Positions 24,499 to 55,091 of a stretch of 64,000 nt of DNA are shown piece by piece. Positions within the stretch are counted from its first letter, which is position 1. Each line of letters begins with the position of its first letter. The stretch is from Roseobacter sinensis (GTDB lineage: Bacteria > Pseudomonadota > Alphaproteobacteria > Rhodobacterales > Rhodobacteraceae): positions 186,001-250,000 of the forward strand of contig NZ_JALIEB010000004.1 of assembly GCF_025755255.1 (NCBI RefSeq), given 5' to 3'. A program made the translations under genes and the position numbers. The notes under the pieces were generated by a model. The model saw only the letters and a list, made by a program, of their open reading frames with translations. It ran no database searches and was not told where the DNA came from.

Positions 24499-25638
24499 TT
24501 ATCTCAGGCGATGCACATGCGCGCTTTGCATCAGGCCGAAGGCCAGCATCAGCACCAGCATCGCCGAGCCGCCAAAGCTCACCAGCGGCAGCGGCACACC
24601 CACGACCGGCGCAAGGCCCATCACCATCGACATGTTCACCGCGAAGAACAGGAAGAAGTTCAGCGCGATCCCGAGGATCAGCAGGGACGAGAAGCGGTCC
24701 TTGTTGATCAGCGCCGACCAGATGCAGAAGACGATGATCAGCGCATAAAGCCCCAACAACGACATGCTCCCCAGAAAGCCGAACTCCTCGGCCAGCGTCG
24801 TAAAGATGAAATCGGTGTGTTTCTCGGGCAGGAAGTTCAGCCGCGTCTGTGTGCCCTGCATGAACCCACGCCCGGTCCATCCGCCGGAGCCGAGCGCGAT
24901 CTTGGATTGGGTGATGTGATAGCCCGCGCCCAGCGGGTCGGTACTGGGGTCGAGGAAAGTGTCGATGCGGCGGAACTGGTAGTCCTTGATCAACTGCCAC
25001 TCGGTCCCGCGGGACTTGAAGACGGTGGTCACCAGCCCGATGGCGCTGGCGAGCACGGCAGCGAAATAGGCCCAGTGCACGCCGGCGAGGAACATCAGCC
25101 CGCCCCCTGCGGCCAGCAGCAGGATGGAGGTGCCCAGATCGGGCTGTCGCAGCACCAGCGCGGTCGGGATCAGGATCACGATCACCGGCAGCAGCACCCA
25201 GAACGGGTGAGAGGTGCGTTTCGCAGGCAGCCAGTCGTAGTAGGCGGCCAGGAACATCACCAGCGTGATCTTCATCAGTTCGGAGGGCTGCAAGCGCATG
25301 AAGCCGAGGTCGATCCAGCGCTGTGCCCCCATGCCGACCACGCCAAAGAACTCCACCGCGACAAGCAGTGCGAGCGTGACAAGATAAGCGATGCCCGCCA
25401 GCGAACGCCAGAACCAGATCGGAACCATCGCGACGCTGATCATCAGCACGAACCCTACGGCAAAACGCTTCATCTGCGGCTCGGCCCACGGGCTGAAGGA
25501 GCCGCCTGCGACCGAATAGAGCATCAGAAACCCGACCCCGGAGATCGAGGCCAGAAGGATCGCGATGGGCCAGTTCAGATAGAGGATCTTGCGCACCCCG
25601 GTCGGTGCGGTTTTGACGGCATACTCGAGATAACTCAT
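24499..25638 (-). CDS. rodA: Rod-shape peptidoglycan glycosyltransferase RodA
   Basis: RodA is the SEDS-family glycosyltransferase of the elongasome and works with PBP2. The 379-residue protein has about ten membrane segments, the FMRLQPSELMKI motif near residue 116, AAGGGLMFLAGVHW, and ARTGSGGWTGRGFMQGTQT-like GSGGWTGRGFMQGTQTRLNF near residue 250, including the catalytic-loop region. The C-terminal PLVSFGGSAMLVLMLAFGL is the SEDS signature. It overlaps mrdA by four bases. Confidence 0.96.
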   Translation of the reverse strand: MSYLEYAVKTAPTGVRKILYLNWPIAILLASISGVGFLMLYSVAGGSFSPWAEPQMKRFAVGFVLMISVAMVPIWFWRSLAGIAYLVTLALLVAVEFFGVVGMGAQRWIDLGFMRLQPSELMKITLVMFLAAYYDWLPAKRTSHPFWVLLPVIVILIPTALVLRQPDLGTSILLLAAGGGLMFLAGVHWAYFAAVLASAIGLVTTVFKSRGTEWQLIKDYQFRRIDTFLDPSTDPLGAGYHITQSKIALGSGGWTGRGFMQGTQTRLNFLPEKHTDFIFTTLAEEFGFLGSMSLLGLYALIIVFCIWSALINKDRFSSLLILGIALNFFLFFAVNMSMVMGLAPVVGVPLPLVSFGGSAMLVLMLAFGLMQSAHVHRLR

Positions 25639-53520: not shown

Positions 53521-53573
53521 ACGCAGGATCACCTTTGGCAGGTATACGTGTGGCATATGGAGGCTGGATCAAG

Positions 53574-54212
53574 ATGCACAAGGTTGTGATGGGAGCGCTG
53601 ATACTGGCGTGGCCCATGACCGCAAATGCCGAAGAGCTGGTGATCGCCGCTCTGGGCGACAGCCTGACACAGGGGTACGGCCTGGTCGAAGCGCAGGGGT
53701 TCGTGCCGCAGCTACAAAGCTGGCTCGAGGAGCAGGGTGCCGAGGTGCGGCTGATCAACGCGGGTGTCTCGGGCGATACCACGGCGGGGGGGCTCAGCCG
53801 GGCGGCCTGGACGCTGACGCCGGAGGTTGATGCGATGATCGTCGCACTTGGGGGCAATGACCTTCTGCGCGGGATCGACCCTACGGTGAGCCGTGCGAAC
53901 CTTGATGGCATCCTGCAGGCCGCTGCGGCCGCGGAGGTAGAGGTCCTGCTGGTGGGGATGCAGGCGCCCGGCAACTATGGGCCCGAGTTCAAAGCCGACT
54001 TCGATGCCATGTACCCGGACCTGGCCGAGACCTATGACGCGCTCTACGCACCGAGCTTCTTCGAGGGGCTCGGCGCGGCGGCGGAGGATCCGGCAGCCGC
54101 TGCACCCTTCATGCAGCCTGACGGTATCCACCCCAGCGCAGAAGGCGTGGCGCGGATCGTCGAGGGGCTGGGCCCCTACGTGATGGAGCTGATCGCCCGG
54201 GCCGAAGGCTGA
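53574..54212 (+). CDS. Arylesterase / lysophospholipase L1-like SGNH hydrolase (TesA type)
   Basis: The 212-residue protein has a signal peptide (MHKVVMGALILAWPMTANA) and the SGNH blocks: ALGDSLTQGYG (nucleophile Ser), NAGVSGDTTAGG, VALGGNDLLRGI and PDGIHPSAEG with the Asp and His. It is a periplasmic esterase/thioesterase like E. coli TesA, whose gene also sits divergent from ybbA-ybbP. The functional link to the transporter is inferred from this conserved neighbourhood. Confidence 0.93.
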   Translation: MHKVVMGALILAWPMTANAEELVIAALGDSLTQGYGLVEAQGFVPQLQSWLEEQGAEVRLINAGVSGDTTAGGLSRAAWTLTPEVDAMIVALGGNDLLRGIDPTVSRANLDGILQAAAAAEVEVLLVGMQAPGNYGPEFKADFDAMYPDLAETYDALYAPSFFEGLGAAAEDPAAAAPFMQPDGIHPSAEGVARIVEGLGPYVMELIARAEG

Positions 54213-54215
54213 GGC

Positions 54216-54833
54216 ATGCCCGGCCGGTTTTTCCTGACCGCACCCATGACAGAGCTGGCTGCTGCGGTGGCGCAGGACGCGGAACCCATCGCGGACGAGC
54301 CGCCGCGGAGCAACATCGCGCCCGGCGAGGCGATCGTGGTGCTCACCCAGGCAGGCCTTTCGCGTATGCGTTGGGGGATTATCCCCGTCGGCCGCGTCAA
54401 TGCGCGGGGTCGCCCGGTGATGGAAACCATCGTGAATGCCCGCAGTGAAACCGTCTTCGACAAATCCGCCTATCTGGGCACGGGGCGCGCGGTGGTGCCG
54501 ATGAACGGCTGGTACGAATGGACAGGCGAGACGCGGCGCAAGACGCCTTGGCGCATCATGCCGAAAACGGGCGGATTTCTCTTCTTTGCCGCGATCACCG
54601 ACCGCTGGCAGGGGCCCGGCGGCATCGCGGTGGATCAGGTGGCGACGCTGACCTGCCCGCCGTCAGGCGACGTGGCTGATATTCACCATCGCATGGGCGT
54701 TATCCTCGCGCCGCAGGATATTCCGCTTTGGCTGACCGGCGACGAGGAGCATGTGATGCCCTTGCTGCGACCTTGGCCCGACGGGCAGCTGACGGTCTCG
54801 GAGGCGACGGATCTGAACTGGGACGCGCCGTAA
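54216..54833 (+). CDS. SRAP (YedK/HMCES) family protein lacking the catalytic cysteine
   Basis: The 205-residue protein matches the SRAP family along its whole length: NARSET (Asn74), MNGWYEW (Glu101), DIHHRMGVIL (His157 or His158) and the RWGIIP block. YedK/HMCES form a DNA-protein crosslink with abasic sites through Cys2 in the invariant MCGR start. Here the N-terminus is MPGRFFL, so Cys2 is Pro while the other active-site residues are kept. No other start would supply a Cys at position 2. It follows the arylesterase by three bases. Confidence 0.85.
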   Translation: MPGRFFLTAPMTELAAAVAQDAEPIADEPPRSNIAPGEAIVVLTQAGLSRMRWGIIPVGRVNARGRPVMETIVNARSETVFDKSAYLGTGRAVVPMNGWYEWTGETRRKTPWRIMPKTGGFLFFAAITDRWQGPGGIAVDQVATLTCPPSGDVADIHHRMGVILAPQDIPLWLTGDEEHVMPLLRPWPDGQLTVSEATDLNWDAP

Positions 54834-54884: not shown

Positions 54885-55091
54885 TCAGGCCAGTGCCAGG
54901 TTTCCTGCGCTTTCGCGGCCGTCGCGGCCCGCTTCCACGTCGAAGGTCACCTTCTGGTTGTCCGCGAGGCCTGTGAGGCCTGCGCGCTCAACGGCAGAAA
55001 TATGCACAAAGATGTCTTTGCCGCCGCCGTCGGGGGCGATAAAGCCGTAGCCTTTTGTGGTGTTGAACCATTTCACGGTGCCAGTGGCCAT
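54885..55091 (-). CDS. CspA family cold-shock protein
   Basis: The 68-residue protein is a single cold-shock domain with RNP1 KGYGFIA near residues 13-19 and RNP2 DIFVHIS near 26-32, and starts MATGTVKWFN. It binds single-stranded RNA and acts as an RNA chaperone. Upstream is an SD-type AGGAGA and a stem-loop in the leader. Confidence 0.96.
   Translation of the reverse strand: MATGTVKWFNTTKGYGFIAPDGGGKDIFVHISAVERAGLTGLADNQKVTFDVEAGRDGRESAGNLALA

Follow-up and report, generated by a model that had tools for sequence, protein, structure and literature searches.

A lineage of SRAP proteins in Rhodobacteraceae carries a fixed proline at the position of the catalytic cysteine

The SRAP family (PF02586), which includes YedK and HMCES, is known for proteins that protect abasic (AP) sites through a persistent covalent bond, and the cysteine at position 2 counts as the family hallmark. 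In the founding analysis this Cys2 is ‘absolutely conserved’, and the residue is ‘always the second amino acid’ (PMC3765255). According to a YedK study, the N-terminal amine attacks the aldehyde of the AP site and the thiol then closes a thiazolidine (PMC9436759). The same study reports that YedK C2A, an SRAP protein without a thiol at position 2 (PDB 8D2M), cleaves as an AP lyase and uses its N-terminal amine to form a Schiff base, which was trapped and seen in the crystal, and that YedK reacts with 3'-PUA (PMC9436759). Lyase rate constants given there are 0.05 for C2A, 0.002 for C2A E105Q and 0.02 for C2A H160Q, a strong dependence on Glu105 and a lesser one on His160. Among the Fpg/Nei proteins, the nearest in action is Nei2 of M. 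smegmatis, whose N-terminal proline (residue 2 of the open reading frame) is reported to be the AP-lyase nucleophile on single-stranded DNA (ssDNA); the Nei2 crystal lacks Met1 and the P2C variant is inactive as a lyase (PMC11323726). Among the matches listed in the open-licence PMC literature, we found no report of a natural SRAP protein with Pro2 or otherwise without Cys2.

Here we describe such a protein, which we call Pro-SRAP, of 205 residues and encoded by an open reading frame at positions 54216–54833 (forward strand) of a 64,000-nucleotide stretch of the Roseobacter sinensis genome, hereafter the window. The frame opens ATG CCC GGC CGG, or Met-Pro-Gly-Arg, with the proline codon CCC (54219–54221, forward strand) at the site of the catalytic Cys2. 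A TGA at 54210–54212, which ends the upstream gene, lies in frame with the ATG, and a single GGC codon separates the two; no upstream start is therefore possible, and a misplaced start is ruled out. The first-pass annotation had read this gene as an SRAP/HMCES-family protein with Cys2 replaced by proline, and the family profile agrees: PF02586 scores 139 bits in Pro-SRAP against a curated Pfam cut-off of 27.1. At E ≤ 0.001 Pfam returned no further domain, and the Fpg/Nei domain (PF01149) was not found. An AF2 model of the protein has a pLDDT of 92.3, and a Foldseek search with it at E ≤ 0.001 gave 21 matches, all to YedK, HMCES or structural-genomics SRAP chains. VIA comparisons gave Z scores of 19.9 to 25.2 for 15 SRAP entries, including 21.7 for the Schiff-base complex of YedK C2A (8d2m; rmsd 2.5 over 192 residues), where residue 2 is the first aligned position in both structures. 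By profile and predicted fold, Pro-SRAP is thus placed within the SRAP family, whereas the defining Cys2 of YedK and HMCES is Pro2; its activity is a prediction.

The rest of the catalytic site is intact. A phmmer alignment together with a joint alignment matches Asn74 (codon 54435–54437), Glu101 (54516–54518) and His157 (54684–54686, all forward strand) to YedK Asn75, Glu105, the acid-base catalyst, and His160, which acts in ring opening. All three residues are invariant in the 76 distinct Pro-SRAP relatives described below, as are Gly3, Arg4, Arg76, Trp102 and Arg159; Gly3-Arg4 and the equivalents of YedK Arg77 and Arg162 are shared with YedK and HMCES. The initial list of kept residues, which had also included both histidines of an HHRM motif, holds for Asn74, Glu101 and His157 but not for His158, which aligns with YedK Asp161 and is present in only 68 of the 76. 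In 81 Cys2 proteins used for comparison, the glutamate and the histidine are each found in 81/81 and the asparagine in 80/81.

Pro-SRAP is the only SRAP match in the R. sinensis genome (4.9 Mb, 99.6% complete); a search for a second, MCGR-type paralogue, which had been proposed as a check, found no other SRAP of any kind there. Proline at position 2 is a shared trait of its close relatives. A scan of named genomes yielded 69 SRAP loci, and the 49 closest (56–81% identity to the window protein) all start with Met, Val or Leu followed by Pro-Gly-Arg. No Pro2 was seen in the other 20 (at most ~39% identity), with one of them (L092) split and some starts lying outside the aligned part. Locus L092, the SRAP gene of Tritonibacter mobilis, was matched as two separate reading frames and is possibly a broken gene. 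Among 248 genomes of the family, one per genus, 35 scored at least 284 bits against a profile of this Pro clade, and the next match scored 145.5 bits. We read 43 proteins, from 34 of these 35 genomes (the 35th being the window’s own) and from nine more genomes of the window’s genus, and Pro2 was present in 43/43.

After removal of identical sequences, the clade comprises 76 distinct proteins including that of the window, and position 2 is proline in every one of them. Its codon is CCG in 52, CCC in 18, CCT in 4 and CCA in 2, a mixture that suggests selection for proline itself. In 59/76 genes no other in-frame ATG, GTG or TTG occurs before the upstream stop, and proline is therefore residue 2. 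With 76 Pro2 proteins and four proline codons from many genomes, a sequencing error at codon 2 is ruled out, and so is the possibility that close orthologues carry Cys2. In a quick-type tree of 158 proteins, with SH-aLRT as its only branch support, the Pro clade forms a single branch (SH-aLRT 100) on a long stem of 1.74 changes per column; the tree also holds one further Pro2 protein, discussed below, and the remaining 81 all have Cys2. The branches inside the clade sum to 28.4 substitutions per site, with pairs of members as little as 46% identical, and the window protein is at best 36–38% identical to a Cys2 protein in the sample. Together, these comparisons mark Pro-SRAP as a distinct SRAP paralogue lineage of Rhodobacteraceae, with a fixed Pro2 and an otherwise intact site. 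It is carried by many marine members of the family. No near relative of the clade was found among 46 phage records (at most 36% identity) or 1536 plasmid records (all below 60%, the best row at 35%), and viral contigs gave one locus at 35%.

Genomic context offers little guide to function. Directly upstream, on the same strand and separated by 3 bases, lies an open reading frame for a TesA-like GDSL lipase/acylhydrolase (53535–54212, start codon uncertain; PF13472 on 53574–54209). Such a neighbour occurs in 64/90 Pro-SRAP loci (some genomes counted twice), with −1 to 9 bases between the two genes in 57 of these 64, and the pair is likely co-transcribed. Beside the lipase gene stand those for an ABC transporter ATPase and an FtsX-type permease. 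The lipase match is absent in 26/90 loci, and in three of these inspected by eye no repair gene was recognised. Downstream of Pro-SRAP are a PF00313 gene on the reverse strand (54885–55091), which we take to be a cold-shock protein, and a forward-strand pair with PF14691 and PF01180 (55417–58054), presumably of the PreT/PreA type. None of the conserved neighbours identified is a DNA repair gene, and the lipase says little about what Pro-SRAP does; context was accordingly dropped as a guide. Control by the SOS response was likewise rejected: no LexA-type box was found near Pro-SRAP, and such patterns occur in the window at chance level, with one match, at 25411.

The sequence and the model together describe a protein with a fixed Pro2, intact catalytic residues and a predicted SRAP fold. 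We favour, with somewhat better than even confidence, the reading that Pro-SRAP is an active enzyme on AP sites in ssDNA, which would form an iminium through its N-terminal proline in place of a thiazolidine, followed by beta-elimination or hydrolysis. Methionine aminopeptidase removes methionine ahead of proline, and Met1 would be lost from Pro-SRAP in this way, freeing the N-terminal proline. Its secondary amine could then react with the aldehyde of an AP site in ssDNA to give a transient iminium. Without a thiol at position 2, the adduct could not proceed to the stable thiazolidine formed by YedK and HMCES, and a lasting cross-link of that type is not expected. The adduct would instead end either in beta-elimination, an AP-lyase reaction that nicks the strand, or in hydrolysis, which amounts to reversible capture. 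With a secondary amine the iminium is charged, and this favours beta-elimination. Given this property and the chemistry of YedK C2A and Nei2, a transient adduct resolved by elimination or hydrolysis is the most likely product. Pro-SRAP differs from both precedents: YedK C2A is a laboratory mutant with a primary amine, whereas the change in Pro-SRAP is natural and fixed and supplies a secondary amine, and Pro-SRAP has the SRAP domain only, with no Fpg/Nei domain; the nucleophilic role known for the Nei2 proline is for Pro2 a prediction.

The first-pass annotation had offered binding without cross-linking, a lyase-like Schiff base through the proline amine, and a regulatory role. The Schiff-base option is the best supported of these, since Asn, Glu and His are kept in 76/76, Pro2 has persisted over 28.4 substitutions per site, and YedK C2A and Nei2 provide precedents; lyase action, reversible capture and binding without chemistry would all fit the sequence. 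No sign of a regulatory role came up in these analyses. Pro-SRAP thus probably reacts with damaged DNA through its proline, and possibly cuts the strand instead of shielding it.

Further support for an active enzyme comes from a second SRAP gene in one genome, G105, which also carries a Pro-clade gene. This protein (L148/L183:1459-2121) belongs to the canonical clade (59% identity to the nearest Cys2 relative, 37% at most to the Pro clade) and yet starts MPGR (ATG CCC GGT CGG). It keeps Asn, Glu and His in the motifs INAR, FYEW and LHDRM. Its position in the tree suggests an independent change from Cys2 to proline, represented by one sequence only. Across a sample of the phylum and of relatives of the G105 genome, Pro2 was found solely in the two G105 genes, with the N-termini of four loci (L191, L216, L217 and L219) unreadable, and four other loci (L213, L214, L215 and L221) have Ser, Thr or Ala at residue 2.

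These last four loci belong to two families of other classes in the phylum, f51 and f44, which we used as control clades, taking the best 30 loci of each together with one earlier locus. In f51, residue 2 is Ala in 27 and Thr in 4 of the 31 proteins read; the equivalent of Glu105 is Val, Leu, Ile or Ala and that of His160 is Ser, Thr or Gly in 31/31, and the Asn75 column is a gap in the alignment, the printed sequences having C-A-R where others have N-A-R. The f51 protein is nonetheless retained, with a match of at least 180 bits in 50/61 genomes searched, and is seemingly catalytically dead yet kept. In f44, residue 2 is Ser in 17, Cys in 12 and Thr in 2 of the 31 read; Asn75 is replaced by His or Gln in 31/31 and the His160 column is a gap in 31/31, with Glu105 kept in 31/31. 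SRAP lineages can therefore, as read from their alignments, lose the catalytic site, residue 2 then being variable, and the Pro clade differs from both in its constant residue 2 and its retained Asn, Glu and His. This contrast is less sharp than it may seem: in f44, 12/31 proteins still have Cys2 although Asn75 and His160 are gone, and the disappearance of these two residues therefore does not simply follow from that of Cys2.

The control clades bear on the rival reading that survives best, in which Pro-SRAP binds AP sites or ssDNA non-covalently, its pocket being kept for lesion recognition and Pro2 for shape. Arg4, Arg76, Trp102 and Arg159 are kept in the Pro clade and also in the two clades without Asn75 and His160, and part of the SRAP site can therefore be under selection without full catalysis. 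A pure binder, however, need not keep Glu101 and His157, whose YedK counterparts are catalytic (PMC9436759) and which are invariant in all 76 proteins, and neither control clade has kept His160. We consider non-covalent binding unlikely.

A further feature that sets the Pro clade apart, beyond residue 2, is a remodelled, arginine-rich loop at residues 58–73 (VGRVNARGRPVMETIV; 54387–54434, forward strand), which in the joint alignment is about three residues longer than in Cys2 proteins. The tryptophan corresponding to YedK Trp67, found in 81/81 Cys2 proteins and also in both f51 and f44, is replaced by glycine (Gly59) in 75/76 Pro-clade proteins, and Arg60, Arg64 and Arg66, each present in 76/76, are switched relative to the Cys2 group. 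Since the loop has lost a tryptophan common to all Cys2 proteins examined, substrate binding by Pro-SRAP may have changed. This fixed remodelling would suit a protein that uses the same N-terminal iminium chemistry mainly on another aldehyde, such as 3'-PUA ends left by lyases, abasic RNA or formyl-bearing oxidised bases, and the reactivity of YedK with 3'-PUA noted above lends this some plausibility. The core of the site is unchanged, however, and the identified neighbours give no pointer to a different substrate; a main substrate of this kind seems rather improbable, a shade more so than plain binding.

Far less credible is a degenerate pseudo-enzyme drifting after loss of its thiol. The two control clades, with non-Cys residues at position 2 and some catalytic residues missing, show that site loss occurs in the family, but Pro2, Asn74, Glu101 and His157 are all invariant across 76 proteins, and the clade occurs in 35 of the 248 one-per-genus genomes. 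Least plausible of all is a relocated thiol, in which Cys147, found in 74/76 Pro-clade proteins against 12/81 Cys2 proteins, would trap the iminium and restore a stable cross-link: the residue is Thr in the remaining two clade members, and it follows the invariant Thr146 at a strand end, where its side chain may face in the opposite direction.

We also compared the distribution of the Pro form with that of canonical SRAP, defined as a match of at least 119 bits to a canonical-clade profile. In 19 genomes of the window’s genus, six have the Pro form only, nine the canonical-clade form only, four both and none neither (totals of 10/19 and 13/19), so that every genome without the canonical-clade gene carries the Pro form. 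Fisher’s two-sided test gives 0.011 for this pattern, ignoring shared descent, and a gyrB tree, weak in its deep branches, requires three changes in canonical gene presence by parsimony. Five of the six canonical-less genomes (G005, G006, G009, G011 and G014) also contain a more remote SRAP match, and that of G006 begins MCGR; these genomes are thus not without a Cys2 SRAP, and only G000 relies on the Pro form alone. At best the pattern hints at a partial overlap between the roles of the Pro form and canonical SRAP, and, if it means anything, the restriction of canonical gene absence to genomes with the Pro form agrees with protection no less well than with cutting. Replacement of canonical SRAP is in any case not general, because 31 of the 35 Pro-bearing family genomes have a second SRAP match. 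Fpg/Nei (PF01149) is found in 242 of the 248 family genomes, mostly in one copy, and its co-occurrence with the Pro form is uninformative. SRAP copy number can also be higher: one genome (G013) has five matches, one of them with an in-frame TGA, and another (G331) has eight.

Returning to the reading of Pro-SRAP as an active, proline-dependent enzyme, a broader evolutionary proposal is tentative and falls a little short of an even chance: that an N-terminal Cys-to-Pro swap has converted an abasic-site cross-linking fold into an AP lyase capable of turnover, or into a reversible AP-site cap, for ssDNA, converging on the Fpg/Nei nucleophile at least twice, in the Rhodobacteraceae clade and in the G105 protein. 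Proteins annotated as ‘SOS response-associated peptidase’ are of at least three kinds, namely those with Cys2, those with Pro2 and those in which catalytic residues are missing. A widespread natural Pro2 lineage with an intact site would test the roles of the SRAP fold beyond cross-linking, and Pro-SRAP raises the question of why some cells would cut abasic ssDNA, or hold it reversibly.
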